From: a virus | Length of the DNA stretch: 57,482 nucleotides | Reading direction: 5' to 3' (one strand) | IMG/VR virus record: IMGVR_UViG_3300010885_014528 | Location: 1-57,482 of that record | Part shown: one piece after another, positions 45,180-54,716 of the stretch | How positions within the stretch are numbered: the stretch's first letter is position 1 | Layout of the letters: the number at the start of each line of letters is the position of its first letter | Position numbers and translations under genes: made by a program | Notes under the pieces: generated by a model | Seen by the model: only the letters and a program-made list of their open reading frames with translations | Told to the model about the DNA's origin: nothing | Databases searched by the model: none

Positions 45180-45623
45180 ATGGATCAATTACATCAAATT
45201 GCTAAAATTGCTTTTGCCAGCGAATTTAGTTTCGCATTAAAAGCACAGAACTTTCACTGGAATGTAGAAGGCAGTGACTTCTTTGAATATCACGCATTGT
45301 TTGAACAAATATACAACGAAGTATATGGAAGCATTGACGACTTTGCTGAAAATCTACGTAAACTACAAACTTATGCTCCTGCTAGCTTATCACGTTTTAA
45401 TATGTTGAGCAAAGTAGAAGATGAAACTGAAATTCTTCCTTTAGACGCAATGGTTAAAGAGTTGCTCATGGACAATGAAAAGATGATTGTTATTTTAAAG
45501 AAAGCCTACGCGGCATCAGAAGCCGCAGGAGAGCCAGGGTTTAGTAATTTTTTAGCAGATAGAATTGATGGTCATCGTAAACATGGCTGGATGCTACGTG
45601 CAAGTTCTAAGGGACAAATGTAA
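45180..45623 (+). CDS. dps: Dps-like ferritin-fold protein
   Basis: 147 residues. The Dps ferroxidase signature is present: NFHWNVEG (His26), YHALFEQIYNEVYGSIDDFAENLR (His38, then the Asp/Glu pair around 53-57). Helices C and D follow; the N-terminal Lys-rich DNA-binding tail of many Dps is missing. Dodecamers oxidise and store iron with peroxide and protect DNA. In a late gene cluster, and with SOD at 20586, it suggests oxidative protection of packaged or replicating DNA. Confidence 0.85.
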   Translation: MDQLHQIAKIAFASEFSFALKAQNFHWNVEGSDFFEYHALFEQIYNEVYGSIDDFAENLRKLQTYAPASLSRFNMLSKVEDETEILPLDAMVKELLMDNEKMIVILKKAYAASEAAGEPGFSNFLADRIDGHRKHGWMLRASSKGQM

Positions 45624-45982: not shown

Positions 45983-47559
45983 ACAACGAATTCAATATAA
46001 AAAAATATGAAAACGCCACAGTCTATACGTTAGAATCAGCAACTGGTGGTGGTACTAGTTCTGGGTCAATAGCAAGTGTAGATATGCCTGTGGGGGGAAT
46101 GCAAAGACGTGCTTCATTGGTCACTTCAGAAGCTAATAAAGATAAACCAACTCAAACTAATCCTGTGGCCAAAGCCGCACAACGAGTAGCAAAAGGTTCG
46201 GGCACACATAAGAATCCAAAAAAAGTTCTTCCACGTAAAGAAAAACATAGAAAGCCGATGGCTGAGGATCATGAAATACAAATGGCCAGTAGCGAGCTAC
46301 AAAGCATTGCTAAGAACGCTGTAAACTTATTGTCTCTAGTACGCAAGTACAACGAACAGGATGGTTTAGAAGCATGGCAACAAAGTAAGATAACTAAAGC
46401 CGCAGATTATTTAAATTCTGTATTACAAAGTGTTAGTGGTGAACAGAGTGACATGGACGGTGATCTTGATGAAAGAAACATAAACCAACCACGTGAGGTT
46501 GCACACAAACCTGTAATACTATCTGCAGAGGATGATGGCAAAACAATCACAGTCAAGGTTCGAGTGCCAGATGGCACCGAACGAACAATTGCAAACTCAA
46601 ACCCAGCCGTTATCCAACAATGGCTAAATGTCAAATACGGACTAAAACTTCCAACCAACATTGCTAAAAAGTTTGTTGGTATGCCAATGTCAATGGCAGA
46701 AAGTGTTGAAGATAGAACAAGCTATCAAGTTGCTAAAATATTAGCTGCCAAAGGTGTTAAGTATGATTCATCTAAAGAAGGCCAGTTAATAACTGCAATC
46801 GGCGACGTCATGATAAATGAGTTGGGCATGGATAAGAAACTAGTAAGAAATATTATCTACCGTGATGACGATTTTCTTGCTGACACACTAAGTGAATTAC
46901 ATCATATGAGCAAAGATGTAGATGAAGGACAGGGCAGGATGCGTGGCAATCCAGGTGCATACGATGCTGATGTTAGAGCAAGTCAATCAGGCATGAGCCG
47001 TGGTCCAGACCATAGAGGTTTAGGACAAGAACTGGCACACGAAAAAAATAACTATGCGGTGGCTATTGATGGTAAGACATGGAAAGTATTTGCTGATAAG
47101 AGCCATGCACAAAATGTTGCTAAGTCACTACAAGCCAAAGGAAAGAATGCAACTGTACATCCTACAGGTGCTAATCCTACAGAAAGTATTGAAGAACGCA
47201 CTGAAGTAAAAGACAAAGATGGCAAAGTAGTAAGCTGGAGAGACGAAACACCGTGGCGTAAAGCTGAGAAAAATAAAAATGGTCAACCTAAAGATCCACG
47301 AGGTACAGTCACTAACCTAAGCGACAAAGCACGTAGAGAAACTGAAAAGAACGTAAAAGAAGATGCCTATATGGAATCTTTAGCAGATAGTTTGGCAGAA
47401 AAACTAGATCCTCATGCAGAGCCAGAGGTGTGGGTTCAAGATTTTCAAAAAGCAAATCCAAACAAATACCACCAATTTAAAAATAAAACTCCGCAGAAGA
47501 AAGCACAGATGGCCATTGCCGCTCGTTATGCGGCTTTAGAACCCAGCAAGAAAAAATGA
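45979..47559 (+). CDS. large modular late protein
   Basis: 526 residues. Disordered Gly/Ser and Lys-rich N-terminus (1-100), helical module SSELQSIAKNAVNLLSLVRK (about 102-121), a beta module (about 165-215), a helical module (about 230-300), a small repeat-like fold NYAVAIDGKTWKVFADKSHA (about 355-374), and a C-terminal motif PEVWVQDFQKANPNKYHQF with MAIAARYAAL. The modules recur in late proteins of T4-like environmental phages. Possibly an internal head protein. The Lys-rich and disordered parts suit DNA contact. Confidence 0.6.
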   Translation: MNNEFNIKKYENATVYTLESATGGGTSSGSIASVDMPVGGMQRRASLVTSEANKDKPTQTNPVAKAAQRVAKGSGTHKNPKKVLPRKEKHRKPMAEDHEIQMASSELQSIAKNAVNLLSLVRKYNEQDGLEAWQQSKITKAADYLNSVLQSVSGEQSDMDGDLDERNINQPREVAHKPVILSAEDDGKTITVKVRVPDGTERTIANSNPAVIQQWLNVKYGLKLPTNIAKKFVGMPMSMAESVEDRTSYQVAKILAAKGVKYDSSKEGQLITAIGDVMINELGMDKKLVRNIIYRDDDFLADTLSELHHMSKDVDEGQGRMRGNPGAYDADVRASQSGMSRGPDHRGLGQELAHEKNNYAVAIDGKTWKVFADKSHAQNVAKSLQAKGKNATVHPTGANPTESIEERTEVKDKDGKVVSWRDETPWRKAEKNKNGQPKDPRGTVTNLSDKARRETEKNVKEDAYMESLADSLAEKLDPHAEPEVWVQDFQKANPNKYHQFKNKTPQKKAQMAIAARYAALEPSKKK

Positions 47560-48335
47560 AATTCAAGGAGTTCAAAGACAGCGATTATGAAATACATAAT
47601 CATCCAAAGCTGGATCGAATCCTTGTAAAACTCTGCCAACTTGTAATCAAAGGAAAAAAAACTAATTCCGAGAAGTACGGAATGGTTGCGGCCTGTGTGT
47701 TAGATCCAAAAAATCAGACTGTTTTATGTGTTAACGAGGCTACTGAAGATGGAACCAGAAAACACGCAGAGCGTGTCGCTATTGAAAGATATGTTGAAAA
47801 ATACGGAGATATACCAACTGGCAGTATTATTTTAACTACACTAAGTCCTTGCAACGAAGACGATACCGAAATGGCAGATGGGCGATATGGTGAAAGCTGT
47901 ACAGACTTAATCAATAATAGCAATGTTCGAAAAGTATATTGCGGTTATATGGATCCTAGTCAAGATAATGAACATAACAAATACACCTTAGAAGCAACAT
48001 CTAATGGCGACATTCGAGAATTGTGCAAAAAGTTTGCAGATACATTCTTAGAAGATGACGTAGACGAGTCCGCCGCCTGGCGTCGTAAAGCAGGCAAGAG
48101 CAAGTCAGGCGGATTGAATAAAAAAGGTGTTGCCTCTTATCGTAGAGAACATCCTGGTAGCAAACTGCAAACAGCAGTGACTACTAAACCTAGTAAATTA
48201 AAAGCTGGGAGTAAGGCTGCCAAACGACGTAAATCATTCTGCGCTAGAATGGGCGGCGTTGACGGTCCAATGAAAAAACCCAACGGTGAACCAACACGTA
48301 AGGCACTGGCATTACGTAAATGGAACTGTGAATGA
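47556..48335 (+). CDS. deaminase-fold protein fused to a DUF6321-like C-terminus
   Basis: 259 residues. The zinc deaminase motif is HAE (70-72) with Pro98-Cys99 and a second Cys115: the PC-to-C spacing is 15 residues instead of the usual 2, with an inserted acidic loop (NEDDTEMADGRYGES). The C-terminal 85 residues (WRRKAGKSKSGGLNKKG; KAAKRRKSFCARMGG) match the phage DUF6321 basic domain, suggesting nucleic-acid binding. Could act on nucleotides, tRNA or DNA. ATGA overlap with the preceding gene. Confidence 0.65.
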   Translation: MKFKEFKDSDYEIHNHPKLDRILVKLCQLVIKGKKTNSEKYGMVAACVLDPKNQTVLCVNEATEDGTRKHAERVAIERYVEKYGDIPTGSIILTTLSPCNEDDTEMADGRYGESCTDLINNSNVRKVYCGYMDPSQDNEHNKYTLEATSNGDIRELCKKFADTFLEDDVDESAAWRRKAGKSKSGGLNKKGVASYRREHPGSKLQTAVTTKPSKLKAGSKAAKRRKSFCARMGGVDGPMKKPNGEPTRKALALRKWNCE

Positions 48336-48900: not shown

Positions 48901-49192
48901 TACAATTTTTAAACCTACATTAGAATGGATTAAAGAAGATTATGCTAGCAATCGCTTTCGTTTTTGCGTTGAGCTTATTGCTTGGGCTATTAGCATTGGG
49001 TGTTCAATTACTATGGCTCTCACAGTCCCCAATCCGCCCCTACTTTCTTTGTACCCTATATGGATCATCGGCTGTGGTCTCTATGCTTGGGCTAGTTATA
49101 CTAGGCAATCATTTGGCATGTTGGCTAACTACCTGCTATTGGTGACTATAGATTCTGTAGGCCTGATTAGAATGTTAGCTAAATATTTTTGA
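48893..49192 (+). CDS. small three-helix membrane protein
   Basis: 99 residues from ATG 48893, overlapping the DsbA-like stop. Hydrophobic segments at about 28-46, 50-66 and 76-96 (VELIAWAISIGCSIT; YPIWIIGCGLYAWASY; MLANYLLLVTIDSVGLI). Unrecognised function; it sits directly before the polymerase operator. Confidence 0.65.
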   Translation: MINTIFKPTLEWIKEDYASNRFRFCVELIAWAISIGCSITMALTVPNPPLLSLYPIWIIGCGLYAWASYTRQSFGMLANYLLLVTIDSVGLIRMLAKYF

Positions 49193-49201
49193 GAACGGTT
49201 C

Positions 49202-49252
49202 AGCGAACCATAAGTCGCTACTAAGAAGGTTGCCGGCCATAAGCGGTAGGAG
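49202..49252 (+). promoter_or_regulatory. tandem 5-bp-stem, 8-nt-loop hairpins: candidate autogenous operator of DNA polymerase
   Basis: Hairpin 1: AGCGA (49202-49206), loop ACCATAAG (49207-49214), TCGCT (49215-49219). Hairpin 2: TGCCG (49231-49235), loop GCCATAAG (49236-49243), CGGTA (49244-49248, one G-U pair), directly followed by the GGAG ribosome site (49249-49252) and ATG 49259. Loops are identical in 7 of 8 positions while stems differ in sequence but keep pairing. An alternative GGTTC/GAACC stem (49197-49209) competes with hairpin 1. T4 gp43 represses its own translation by binding a hairpin with an 8-nt loop at the same place. Confidence 0.6.
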
Positions 49253-49258
49253 AAAAAT

Positions 49259-51928
49259 ATGAGCTATGTAGATGCCATCTGGGATCGCGAAACAGACATC
49301 GTCAATGTTGTTGAGCGAGATCCTAAAAAAGGAAGAATATTCCAAACTTATCCAGCCCGATATCTGTTTTACTATCCAGATGCTCGCGGCAAATTCAAAT
49401 CAATCTTCGGCGAATCCTTGACCAAGGTCACTGCCAAGAATCACAAAGAATTTATCAAAGAACAAAAAATACATTCGTCACACAAGTTGTACGAAAGTGA
49501 TATCAATCCTGTATTCCGTTGTCTTGAAGAAAACTATCTAGGCAAAGATGCTCCAAAATTAAATGTAGCGTTCTGGGATATTGAGGTGGACTTTGATCCA
49601 GAACGTGGCTACGCAAGTCCCGATGATGCGTTCATGCCAATAACTGCCATTGCTGTTCACCTACAATGGTTAGACACCCTGGTATGTCTTGCGGTACCGC
49701 CAAAGACTTTAACAATGGAACAGGCAACAGAACAAGTCAAAGACTTTCCTAACACTATCCTGTTTGAAACAGAAGCAGACATGCTAGACACATTCTTAGA
49801 CCTCATCCAGGATGCAGATATTTTAAGTGGCTGGAACAGTGAAGGCTTTGATATGCCCTATACTGTCAATCGGATTATCAAAGCTCTGAGCAAAGAAGAT
49901 ACTCGCAGATTATGTTTGTGGGATAAGTTCCCTAAAAAGCGCGAGTATGAAAAATATGGCAAGGCCGCTGTCACATATGACCTACACGGGCGTGTACACT
50001 TAGACAGTCTTGAACTATATCGCAAATACACATATGAAGAACGCCATACTTACCGATTAGATGCTATTGGGGAACTAGAAGTAGGCGAAAGTAAGACTGT
50101 CTATGAAGGCACACTAGATCAGCTTTATAACAATGACTTTAAAAAGTTCATTGAATACAATAGACAAGACTGTGCATTGTTAGATAAACTTGATAAAAAA
50201 CTTAAATTTTTAGATCTAGCCAGTACCGTTGCTCACGAAAATACTGTATTGCTACAGACTACTATGGGTGCCGTGGCAGTGACTGAGCAGGCTATTATTA
50301 ACGAAGCCCACCATAGAGGCATGATTGTTCCCAGTCGTCCCAAAAGAGATGAAACTATTAACACACAGGCCGCAGGTGCGTATGTTGCCTATCCTAAAAA
50401 AGGATTACACGACTATATAGGATCAATGGATATTAACAGTTTGTATCCGTCAGTGATTCGTGCATTAAACATGGGTCCAGAAACTATTATTGGGCAATTG
50501 CGGCAAGATTATACTAAAGAAGAAATTGAAAATAAGATAGCTAAAAATTCAAGTTTTGCGGCGGCATGGGAGGGCAAGTTTGCCGCCAATGAATATGAAC
50601 TTGTTATGTCTCAGGATCGTGCCCACGATATTATCATCGACTGGGAGAATGGTGAAACCAGTGTTATGAGCGGTGCTCAGATCTATGAGGTAATCTACGA
50701 AAGCAACAAGCCCTGGATGCTTTCAGCTAATGGCACAATCTTTACCTACGAGTTTGAAGGTATTATCCCCGGCTTGTTAAAGCGTTGGTATGCTGAACGT
50801 AAAGAGATGCAGGCCAAATTAAAAGAATGTATTAAGGCAGAAAATAAAATTGAAGAAGAATATTGGGATAAGCGACAGCTCGTTAAAAAGATTAATCTTA
50901 ATAGTTTGTATGGTGCCATTCTTAACGCCGGTTGTAGGTTTTTTGATAATCGCATTGGACAATCTACTACATTAACGGGTCGGTGTATTGCTCGACATAT
51001 GGCTAGTAAAATCAATGAAGTTATAACAGGTGAATACAACCATGTTGGAAAATCTATTATATACGGTGACACTGACAGTGCTTATTTTAGTGCTTATAAT
51101 ACTCTCCGAAAAGAAATAGATAAGAAAGAAATACCTTGGGACAAAGATACAGTGGTTAAATTGTATGACAGCGTATCTGAAAGTGTTAATGATACATTTC
51201 CAGAATTTATGATGGATGCATTCCACTGCCCAAAAACACGCGGTGATGTTATCAAAGCAGGTCGTGAGATTGTTGCTATTAAGGGCTTGTTCATTACTAA
51301 GAAGCGTTATGCTGTATTGTACTATGACAAAGAAGGCAAACGTACAGATATAGAAGGCAAGCCAGGCAAAATTAAAGCCATGGGCTTGGATTTGAAACGT
51401 AGTGACACTCCAGAATTTATGCAAAAGTTTTTAGAAGAGATCTTGACTGATGTACTTAACGGTGCAGAAGAAAAAGATGTATTGGCACGTATTAGTGAAT
51501 TTAGAACTGAATTCAAAGCAAGACCCGGATGGGAAAAGGGTAGTCCTAAACGTGCTAACAATATTGCCGAATATCAAGCCAAAGAAAAGGCAGCAGGCAA
51601 GGCAAATATGCCAGGGCATGTTCGAGCCAGTATTAACTGGAATACTCTAAAGCGTATGAACGGTGACAAGTATTCACAAAACATTGTAGACGGCATGAAA
51701 GTTATTGTCTGCAAACTCAAAGATAATCCGTTAGGATTTACCTCCGTAGCTTATCCAACAGATGAACTACGATTACCCAAGTGGTTTCAAGAACTGCCGT
51801 TTGAACACGCAGAAATGGAAACTACTATTATCAACAATAAGCTAGAAAACCTAATCGGGGTATTGGAATGGGATTTAGAATCAACGACCCAGAACAATAC
51901 ATTTGCAAGTTTATTTGATTTTGAATAA
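49259..51928 (+). CDS. family B DNA polymerase (T4 gp43-like)
   Basis: 889 residues, close to T4 gp43 (about 900). Exonuclease motifs: WDIEV (D107, E109), SGWNSEGFDMPY (Exo II) and YNRQDCALL (Exo III). Polymerase motifs: A SMDINSLYPS (about 390-398), B KKINLNSLYGAILN (about 542-555) and C YGDTDS (602-607). The C-terminal tail NTFASLFDFE (880-889) is a clamp-binding peptide like that of T4/RB69. It is the replicative polymerase with proofreading. Translation is probably controlled by the tandem hairpins before the ribosome site. The clamp gene follows. Confidence 0.95.
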   Translation: MSYVDAIWDRETDIVNVVERDPKKGRIFQTYPARYLFYYPDARGKFKSIFGESLTKVTAKNHKEFIKEQKIHSSHKLYESDINPVFRCLEENYLGKDAPKLNVAFWDIEVDFDPERGYASPDDAFMPITAIAVHLQWLDTLVCLAVPPKTLTMEQATEQVKDFPNTILFETEADMLDTFLDLIQDADILSGWNSEGFDMPYTVNRIIKALSKEDTRRLCLWDKFPKKREYEKYGKAAVTYDLHGRVHLDSLELYRKYTYEERHTYRLDAIGELEVGESKTVYEGTLDQLYNNDFKKFIEYNRQDCALLDKLDKKLKFLDLASTVAHENTVLLQTTMGAVAVTEQAIINEAHHRGMIVPSRPKRDETINTQAAGAYVAYPKKGLHDYIGSMDINSLYPSVIRALNMGPETIIGQLRQDYTKEEIENKIAKNSSFAAAWEGKFAANEYELVMSQDRAHDIIIDWENGETSVMSGAQIYEVIYESNKPWMLSANGTIFTYEFEGIIPGLLKRWYAERKEMQAKLKECIKAENKIEEEYWDKRQLVKKINLNSLYGAILNAGCRFFDNRIGQSTTLTGRCIARHMASKINEVITGEYNHVGKSIIYGDTDSAYFSAYNTLRKEIDKKEIPWDKDTVVKLYDSVSESVNDTFPEFMMDAFHCPKTRGDVIKAGREIVAIKGLFITKKRYAVLYYDKEGKRTDIEGKPGKIKAMGLDLKRSDTPEFMQKFLEEILTDVLNGAEEKDVLARISEFRTEFKARPGWEKGSPKRANNIAEYQAKEKAAGKANMPGHVRASINWNTLKRMNGDKYSQNIVDGMKVIVCKLKDNPLGFTSVAYPTDELRLPKWFQELPFEHAEMETTIINNKLENLIGVLEWDLESTTQNNTFASLFDFE

Positions 51929-51935
51929 AATTTAT

Positions 51936-51964
51936 TTGACTTTAACCATTTTTCTAAATATAAT
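51936..51964 (+). promoter_or_regulatory. sigma-70 promoter for the sliding clamp
   Basis: TTGACT (51936-51941) and TATAAT (51959-51964), 17-bp spacer; AAGGAC ribosome site before ATG 51983. Confidence 0.8.
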
Positions 51965-51982: not shown

Positions 51983-52717
51983 ATGAAAGACATTTTAGCA
52001 GACATCGTAGCACACACAAACAAATTAGGTTTTCTTAATATTGTTAAAATAACTGGTACAGAAGATAAAACCCTTATCGACTCTATGGCAGAAGACCGTT
52101 CGGTTATTTTGTATGCAGAGACCGCAGATCCACATCCTGATATGATCGGTACATTCGGTATGCCGCAGTTGGAAAAATTGCAATACTTACTCAACGGTTC
52201 AGAATATAAAGACGGTGCAAAAATTGAAGTGACTATTGCAGATCGAAACGGAGAAACTATTCCTGTAGGTTTGCACTTTGAAAACAAAGATGGCGATTTT
52301 AAAAACGATTATCGGTTTATGAATCAGGCTATCATTGAAGAAAAACTTAAGACTGTTAAGTTCCGCGGAGCCAAGTGGGAAGTAGAAGTAAATCCGGCAT
52401 TGAATGCTATTCAACGTTTTCAGTTCCAGGCAGGTGCTAACACAGAACACACAACGTTCTTGGCTAAGACAGACAGCGATATTTTAAAATTTACATTTGG
52501 TGATCAAAGTACACACGGTGGTGAGTTTACATTTGCCACTGGTATCACAGGTAAATTAACTAAAACATGGGCTTACCCAGTTAATGCTGTATTGAGTATT
52601 CTCAAAGCCGCAGATGTAAACAATACAGTTATGAGCTTCAGTGATAGTGGTGCTATGCAGATTACATTGGATAGTGGTTTAGCAACTTACAAGTATATCG
52701 TACCAGCACAAGCATGA
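51983..52717 (+). CDS. DNA sliding clamp (T4 gp45-like)
   Basis: 244 residues (T4 gp45: 228). The pattern fits a two-domain trimeric clamp: FGMPQLEKLQYLLNGSEY (about 54-71, first-domain helix) and the C-terminal AVLSILKAADVNNTVMSF with SGAMQITLDSGLATYKYIVP (the last domain's helix and strands). The clamp tethers polymerase and, in T4, activates late transcription. Position next to the polymerase and own promoter support the call. Sequence identity to T4 is low. Confidence 0.75.
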   Translation: MKDILADIVAHTNKLGFLNIVKITGTEDKTLIDSMAEDRSVILYAETADPHPDMIGTFGMPQLEKLQYLLNGSEYKDGAKIEVTIADRNGETIPVGLHFENKDGDFKNDYRFMNQAIIEEKLKTVKFRGAKWEVEVNPALNAIQRFQFQAGANTEHTTFLAKTDSDILKFTFGDQSTHGGEFTFATGITGKLTKTWAYPVNAVLSILKAADVNNTVMSFSDSGAMQITLDSGLATYKYIVPAQA

Positions 52718-53091
52718 TAAAAGGTATATCGTCAACTGGCCGTTATATTTCGGTATCGGGAGGTAATACTTCCGGTCCCTATATTAGTCCAGGATCTGCA
52801 GGAGCAGGAATGGTTCGATGGAATCCTAATATGAGCCAACTTGAGATCAATGATGGTAATAGTTGGCTTTCTCTATCAACAAGTTATGCATCAATCAGTT
52901 TAACAGACGATGCAATACGTCTATTAGATTGGGCTAACAAAAAGATGGATGAAGAAGAGGCTATGCTGTCTCTACCCAATGACCACCCCGCAATAAAGAT
53001 TGCTAAACAAAATGTTAATCGTGCAAAACAGGCATTAAAAGAAGCAGAAGAGCAATTAAAAATAACATCAATATTAAGCGAAGAACAATGA
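52714..53091 (+). CDS. hypothetical protein with coiled-coil C-terminus
   Basis: 125 residues, Gly/Ser-rich N-terminal half (YISVSGGNTSGPYISPGSAG) similar to fibre-tip or attachment pieces, C-terminal helix (AKQNVNRAKQALKEAEEQLK). ATGA overlap with the clamp and with DpdA. Function unknown; a short virion protein is more likely than a replication factor. Confidence 0.55.
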   Translation: MIKGISSTGRYISVSGGNTSGPYISPGSAGAGMVRWNPNMSQLEINDGNSWLSLSTSYASISLTDDAIRLLDWANKKMDEEEAMLSLPNDHPAIKIAKQNVNRAKQALKEAEEQLKITSILSEEQ

Positions 53092-54716
53092 ATCCACCAG
53101 TTAATCTAACCCCATTGCAAAAAGACTATGCTGTCTATTTGCCAGCTATCAGTAGTTTTTATTCTACCTATATTGCTAAACAACGATTAGAAGAATTTGT
53201 ACCTAAGAATCGTATTCCTGCTGGGTTTGATCGTGGTATTGAAGGTATGAATTTCCTTAATCCAGAACAAGGATATTTTACATACAAGTACGGGCTCTAT
53301 TCAGCAGGTCATGCACAATTGGATCTTCAAAAGAGTCTAACACAAGAATCAATGATTCAACAACGAGATCGTAATAACACTATGATCCTCGGTGACTCAG
53401 GTGGATACCAGATTGGTAAGGGTGTTCTTAAGTTTGATTGGTTAGACTTTGAAGGTAAAGAAGCTACTAAGACTCGTCAAAAGATTCTAGAGTGGCTCGA
53501 AGTCACTGCTGATTGGTCTATGATGCTAGACGTTCCTACTTGGGCCTGTGATCATATTCACAGTCCAAAAACTGGTTTGAAAACATTTGAAGACTGTCTA
53601 GATAAGACTCGATATAATAACGACTACTTCTTAATGAATCGTTTAGGACAAACTAAATGGCTTAATGTTCTACAAGGCAGTGATTGGGATACTGCTGAAA
53701 AGTGGTATGACGGTGTAAAAGAATTCAGCGACCCTAAAGGCAAGTATGCAGGGCGAGAAGCAGAAGGTTGGGCCATGGGTGGTGCTAACATGTGCAAGAT
53801 GGATATTACTCTTAAGCGTCTAATGACATTGAGAGAAGATGGTTTGCTGAAGGGCAAAAACTGGATCCACTTCTTGGGTACAGCACAGTTAGATTGGTCA
53901 TGCTATCTAACATTAATTCAACGACAAATTAGGAAACACCTCAATGAAGAACTTACCATCTCTTTTGACTGCGCATCACCGTTCATCGCAACAGCACACG
54001 GACTTGTCTACACAAATGCAGTCCACACGCCAAAAAGGTGGAGTGTTATTATGGACAAAGCCCCAGACAACAAAGTACTTGCAGGAAGCGACGTCCCATT
54101 CCCCTTTGAATCGACAATCGGTCGCCGGTTGACAATGACGGATATTGCCTATTATAATATAGGCAAACGTAAAACGGATAAGGAATTAGCTGGTGTTAAG
54201 TTTGACCATTTGAATCCAGAACACTATCATGAAGTTCCTAGACTTAATAAGCTAGGCAAGATTCCAAACAAAACAAGTTGGGATAGTTTTGCTTATGCTC
54301 TAATGATGGGGCATAATGTAGAATGCCATATTGTTGCTGTACAACGTGCTCAACAGTTAATGGACATTGAAATTGCCAAAGTTAAAGATCGTCTAACATG
54401 GAAACAATGGAAGAAAGTCAAAGGCTCAGATATGAGTGACGAGTATAGTGATTGGGTACCTCGCAATATTCTATACTTTAGTTCTTTTATTGAAGATTTG
54501 TTTAATACTACTACAAAAGAAGAAGCCTTTAAAATGATTGAAGATGCTGGTCCATTTTTAAAGTCACTCGAAGGTGCTCGCTTACAAGGTGGTCCCGCAC
54601 AGAATACATTTGGTAGTTTGTTTGAAATTGAAACAGTGACTAGTGCTGATGAGATCGATCTAGCCAATCCAGATGATGATGACCTACGTGCTCTTGAGGA
54701 AGAAATAACATCATGA
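53088..54716 (+). CDS. DpdA-like TGT-family DNA 7-deazaguanine transglycosylase
   Basis: 542 residues. Catalytic landmarks of the tRNA-guanine transglycosylase superfamily: LGDSGGYQIGKG (Asp103 region), LDVPTW, WLNVLQGSD, GWAMGGANM and FDCASP (nucleophile Asp, about 295). DpdA-type members exchange guanine in DNA for preQ0 or its derivatives, which protects phage DNA from restriction enzymes. FolE and QueD for the precursor are in this window. The C-terminal NTFGSLFEIE (506-515) closely resembles the polymerase's clamp-binding tail (NTFASLFDFE). A tRNA enzyme is the alternative, but the zinc-binding CxCxxC of bacterial Tgt is not present. Confidence 0.78.
   Translation: MNPPVNLTPLQKDYAVYLPAISSFYSTYIAKQRLEEFVPKNRIPAGFDRGIEGMNFLNPEQGYFTYKYGLYSAGHAQLDLQKSLTQESMIQQRDRNNTMILGDSGGYQIGKGVLKFDWLDFEGKEATKTRQKILEWLEVTADWSMMLDVPTWACDHIHSPKTGLKTFEDCLDKTRYNNDYFLMNRLGQTKWLNVLQGSDWDTAEKWYDGVKEFSDPKGKYAGREAEGWAMGGANMCKMDITLKRLMTLREDGLLKGKNWIHFLGTAQLDWSCYLTLIQRQIRKHLNEELTISFDCASPFIATAHGLVYTNAVHTPKRWSVIMDKAPDNKVLAGSDVPFPFESTIGRRLTMTDIAYYNIGKRKTDKELAGVKFDHLNPEHYHEVPRLNKLGKIPNKTSWDSFAYALMMGHNVECHIVAVQRAQQLMDIEIAKVKDRLTWKQWKKVKGSDMSDEYSDWVPRNILYFSSFIEDLFNTTTKEEAFKMIEDAGPFLKSLEGARLQGGPAQNTFGSLFEIETVTSADEIDLANPDDDDLRALEEEITS

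Follow-up and report, generated by a model that had tools for sequence, protein, structure and literature searches.

Tandem H-type pseudoknots predicted in the DNA polymerase leader of uncultured T4-like jumbo phages: a candidate autogenous operator

Introduction

The operator of the T4 and RB69 DNA polymerase gene is a hairpin with an 8-nt loop, and the T4 version is said to have been the original SELEX target. The polymerase of both phages, gp43, represses its own mRNA at the polymerase leader (PMC3014915). This operator is a single hairpin whose loop is UAAC, and there is no evidence that it forms a pseudoknot (PMC3014915). In the gene 32 leader of T4, T2 and RB69, one pseudoknot lies ~67 nt 5' of the AUG, and an unstructured UUAAA region comes after it (PMC3014915, PMC535899). 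In 2010, the gene 32 element was described as perhaps the sole viral pseudoknot with a role in translational autoregulation (PMC3014915). The STAXI motif is formed by tandem pseudoknots, often with UUCG tetraloops, and is found near DNA-handling genes, including those for SSB, topoisomerase, antirestriction and integrase proteins (Weinberg et al. 2010, PMC2864571).

Here we describe a polymerase leader in a stretch of viral DNA of 57,482 nt (IMG/VR record IMGVR_UViG_3300010885_014528; hereafter, the window, with all features given on its plus strand). Like the T4/RB69 gp43 operator, it is a structured RNA with an 8-nt hairpin loop, located in the leader of a gp43-type polymerase and adjoining the ribosome-binding site. 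Unlike that simple UAAC hairpin, it comprises two pseudoknots with RCCNNAAR loops that contain paired bases, and its binding by the polymerase is putative. With the gene 32 operator it shares an H-type pseudoknot in the mRNA leader of a replication protein and, putatively, autogenous repression; however, it precedes a polymerase gene rather than an SSB gene, is present in two copies, and abuts the Shine-Dalgarno sequence where the gene 32 knot is followed by the UUAAA region. Among described tandem pseudoknots the closest is STAXI (PMC2864571), which also consists of repeated pseudoknots near DNA-handling genes, but no Rfam model matched the leaders studied here. In position the leader resembles the gp43 operator and in fold the gene 32 operator; it is not an established member of either group. 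It was not described in the literature found, in which subscription journals were mostly outside coverage.

Results

The polymerase gene at 49259..51928 encodes an 889-aa family B DNA polymerase of the T4/RB69 gp43 type (phrog_262, E 5e-195; RB69 gp43 1clq, E 1.4e-60). Within the 66-nt gap 5' of this gene lie two hairpins, each with a 5-bp stem and an 8-nt loop. Hairpin 1, AGCGA-ACCATAAG-TCGCT, spans 49202-49219, and hairpin 2, TGCCG-GCCATAAG-CGGTA, spans 49231-49248 and reaches 6 bp if the outer U-G pair is counted. The 3' end of hairpin 2 adjoins the Shine-Dalgarno sequence GGAG (49249-49252), 6 nt 5' of the AUG at 49259. The sequence thus agrees with the first-pass annotation, which had reported two such hairpins at these sites with the second ending at GGAG.

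Judged from the sequence of the window alone, the hairpins are unremarkable and do not exceed chance. The plus strand of the window contains 481 five-pair hairpins with 8-nt loops, among which 15 seven-base loop ends recur, and CCATAAG is not enriched in the window (5 found versus 7.7 expected). As a single sequence, the leader had a minimum-free-energy fold no better than those of its shuffles (z +0.91). Minimum-energy folding does not recover the structure or lend it support, an expected outcome for pseudoknots. The significance of the hairpins therefore derives from the comparison with relatives, in which both are present with covarying stems, and not from single-sequence statistics.

The leader was compared with those of the 80 nearest IMG/VR relatives (L001-L080), in which the polymerase is 82-90% identical; a comparison of this kind had been named beforehand as one of the checks. 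Both hairpins were found with covarying stems in 80/80 relatives, on quite different stem sequences, which upholds the earlier claim that the hairpins are not a product of chance. The constant part of the loop among these relatives was R-C-C-N-N-A-A-D. Overall, the conserved loop is R-C-C/U-N-N-A-A-R/D; this pattern is kept in the relatives, but CCATAAG, the loop to which the annotation had pointed, is only one version among several.

Each stem is preceded, at a distance of 0-3 nt, by a GGU that complements loop bases 1-3. Because these bases pair with the upstream GGU, each unit is predicted to be an H-type pseudoknot, with an S1 of 3-4 bp, an L1 of 1-3 nt, an S2 of 4-7 bp, no L2 and a five-base L3 of the form NNAAR/D. 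The window itself has GGU:ACC as the S1 of unit 1 and GGU:GCC as that of unit 2. The 5' strand of S1 in pseudoknot 1 (GGU, 49197-49199) pairs with 49207-49209 and was 100% paired in 49 distinct leaders, a set chosen partly by pairing. The 3' strand (ACC, 49207-49209) forms the first three loop bases, and the pair is elsewhere GGU:GCC, GGC:GCC or AGU:GCU. S2 of this pseudoknot joins AGCGA (49202-49206) to UCGCU (49215-49219), with covariation seen as two-sided changes at 5/5 pairs, and its L3 is AUAAG (49210-49214), in which the AA is nearly invariant in module 1. In pseudoknot 2, covariation supports the pairing of GGU (49228-49230) with GCC (49236-49238). The segment 49231-49235 comprises U49231, which is either L1 or the outermost pair, and the S2 5' strand GCCG; L1 is one nucleotide long if S2 has four pairs. 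The L3 of pseudoknot 2, AUAAG (49239-49243), has an AA that was invariant in 95/95 module-2 units with 8-nt loops. The S2 3' strand, CGGUA (49244-49248), supported by sequence and covariation, abuts the Shine-Dalgarno sequence. By covariation, the 5' leader of the polymerase mRNA is thus shown to have the predicted fold of two consecutive H-type pseudoknots, with the ribosome-binding site immediately after them.

The first-pass annotation, whose hairpin positions otherwise hold, had missed the two upstream GGU strands (49197-49199 and 49228-49230). It had also read the conserved loops on unrelated stems as a sign of RNA recognition. The element is indeed duplicated, conserved and specific to the polymerase gene, with variable stems and constrained loops; however, loop conservation is due mainly to pairing of bases 1-3 with the upstream GGU (or AGU, GAGU or GUC), and not to a role as a recognition loop.

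A strict descriptor that included the upstream pairing recovered both units in 76/81 leaders and one strict unit in the other five. Compensatory changes in S1 gave GGU:GCC, AGU:GCU, GAGU:GCUC and GUC:GAC, with AGU:GCU serving as the unit-1 S1 in L010, L013 and L047. A targeted scan for A as the first base of S1 yielded 18 tandem leaders; the compensating loop U was present in 18/18 and C in none. In a sister clade (polymerase ~63-65% identical in the contigs measured), the S1 of unit 2 was GAGU:GCUC, GAGC:GCUC or GAGU:ACUC, and that of unit 1 was AGU:ACU, GUC:GAC or AGU:GCU.

Among 49 distinct unit-1 and 43 distinct unit-2 sequences, all S1 cells and ~94% of S2 cells were paired; the unit-1 set was selected partly by pairing, and the unit-2 set by a sequence pattern that also permitted non-pairing combinations, none of which occurred. 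Covariation scores were 0.54 for unit 1 and 0.53 for unit 2, versus shuffled means of 0.25 and 0.21, and were reached by 0/500 shuffles. Sliding the pairing partners destroyed the signal. When hairpins were picked without regard to S1, as in a permutation test on 124 two-hairpin leaders, S1 paired in 84/124 leaders for unit 1 and 105/124 for unit 2; the permutations reached at most 62 and 85, respectively. In a polymerase tree built with FastTree, unit 1 showed at least 8 changes of S1 class and unit 2 at least 3. Pairing between modules was ruled out: where the two units differed in S1 (n=28), only intra-module pairing worked in 27/28. Since cross-pairing in both directions was possible in only 1/28, each unit folds on itself.

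The motif occurs twice in the window, both times in the polymerase leader. Two pattern scans of IMG/VR returned 184 units with a stem of at least 5 pairs, and 184/184 were located directly 5' of a homologue of the window polymerase. The leader-like GGY/RCC form with a start codon right behind it was present only before the polymerase gene in four large contigs from relatives (of 331, 230, 159 and 349 kb); other GGY/RCC matches in these contigs were scattered and weak. The G011 clade has kept a single GGC..GCC unit, in which the 3' strand of S2 contains the Shine-Dalgarno sequence. In a related clade (L253-L289 and L421-L423), one GGC..GCC pseudoknot is fused with the Shine-Dalgarno sequence, and these leaders carry a different upstream element, GAGUCGCUC-ACGUUAC-GAGCAUG.

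Several nested polymerase clades have no leader, and their polymerase start codon overlaps the upstream stop. The element is thus dispensable. In L222-L235, L244, L372, L378, L392 and L416, which have this start-stop overlap, the promoter and pseudoknot leader are missing as a block. The tandem motif was also absent from the polymerase leader of the isolate jumbo phages Phosso, Atu_ph07, RaK2, 121Q, XaC1, PHA46, Vibrio 2.275.O and SCTP-2, relatives with polymerases ~42-50% identical. The proposal that the element is a diverged, duplicated T4 operator is not supported, given that these relatives lack the motif and that the T4/RB69 operators are hairpins without evidence of a pseudoknot.

TAAATA, which we take to be the core of T4-type late promoters, is present at 49180-49185 without a -35 element. 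It ends 11-12 nt 5' of the first GGY in 69/81 leaders, and it is 9-15-fold enriched upstream of long ORFs in these genomes. A sigma-70 promoter was looked for at the polymerase leader, and none was found. If used, TAAATA would start the transcript a few bases 5' of pseudoknot 1, and the leader would then be little more than the two pseudoknots and the ribosome site. The next gene, 51983-52717, has a plain sigma-70 promoter (TTGACT-17-TATAAT, window 51936-51964) and a very short leader. Unlike the polymerase leader, this one is too short for structure, and the pseudoknot motif is absent from it. Gene position and the annotation of phage Phosso indicate that its product is a probable sliding clamp. 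In relatives, a conserved CTAAATA overlaps the strong sigma-70-type promoter of this gene.

Discussion

The leader is probably an autogenous translational operator at which surplus polymerase would bind and block the ribosome site. We infer repression with the polymerase as ligand, a reading that best accounts for the leader because the element lies only before the polymerase gene, touches the ribosome site and has a precedent in T4/RB69. Polymerase in surplus over replication forks would bind the pseudoknots, and the presence of two sites may permit the units to cooperate, making binding cooperative or graded. Bound polymerase would stabilise pseudoknot 2 against the Shine-Dalgarno sequence, such that the 30S subunit could not load; once the polymerase was engaged on DNA, the knots would melt and translation would proceed. 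In favor of an operator, pseudoknot 2 abuts the Shine-Dalgarno sequence or, in the G011 clade, includes it. Against it, the element is missing from several nested clades and from the isolate jumbo-phage relatives, an S1 of 3 bp is short, and some T4-related polymerases do not autoregulate (PMC3014915). Conservation outside the pairs is also limited to few bases (the L3 AA), so that the binding protein is not directly indicated.

A different protein, either a gp32-like SSB or an unknown regulator of phage or host origin, might instead bind the tandem pseudoknots and control polymerase translation. The T4 gene 32 operator is itself an H-type pseudoknot bound by gp32, and a gp32-like protein was found in one relative, G001 (in G001 only, at the search sensitivity used). 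However, the leader of this gp32-like gene in G001 had 0 strict descriptor matches, and the element would be expected at other genes too if the regulator had several targets, whereas the pseudoknots were found only before the polymerase; a RegA homologue was not found in a search that lacked a working control. We therefore regard control by another protein as rather unlikely. Still less probable is a role without regulation, in which the pseudoknots form a 5' structure that shields the mRNA from degradation or fixes a low rate of translation. A TAAATA start, if used, would place pseudoknot 1 a few bases from the 5' end, where structure would stabilise the mRNA, but generic protection requires neither two copies, pairings kept through class changes and a fixed AA in the loop, nor restriction to one gene, and the neighboring probable clamp gene has an ordinary promoter and a very short leader.

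H-type pseudoknots with A-rich third loops beside a Shine-Dalgarno sequence are a usual layout of riboswitches such as preQ1-I and SAM-II, and tandem riboswitch aptamers exist. The leader has this layout, and tandem pseudoknot aptamers for a small molecule could in principle control polymerase translation. Set against this are the scarcity of conserved bases beyond the pairs and two A's, the free exchange of both S1 strands among GGU:GCC, AGU:GCU and GUC:GAC, and the location of the element only before a replication enzyme and never before metabolic genes. At gathering level, the window matched no riboswitch family in Rfam; at up to E 10, the leader had no match except a chance snoRNA, and three relative loci had none. 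A riboswitch is thus very improbable. That the hairpins arose by chance and have no function fits the unremarkable single-sequence statistics, but this explanation is refuted by the covariation in all relatives, and we give it practically no weight.

With autogenous control by the polymerase as the preferred reading, we incline, by a narrow preference, to a broader proposal: that an undescribed family of tandem H-type pseudoknot operators regulates the replicative DNA polymerase in many uncultured T4-like jumbo phages, and that the polymerase reads the shape of the pseudoknot rather than the loop sequence, with pairings switching repeatedly while function is kept. If true, a polymerase leader of two pseudoknots would mean that replisome autoregulation evolves new RNA architectures. 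The natural collection of >100 diverged leader variants, together with the nested clades that have no leader, provides a system for how a DNA polymerase reads RNA shape.

Other genes near the polymerase were noted in the window. The 542-aa protein encoded at 53088-54716 resembles, by eye, tRNA-guanine transglycosylase-like enzymes (ILGDSGGYQ), and it matched no PHROG, Pfam or NCBIfam model. This resemblance prompted consideration of regulation by 7-deazaguanine (preQ1), which was set aside as no family matched the protein. Shortly upstream of the polymerase, the gene at 47556-48335 encodes a cytidine/deoxycytidylate deaminase domain fused to DUF6321. The gene at 45180-45623 encodes a Ferritin-like (Dps-like) protein in a phage contig.
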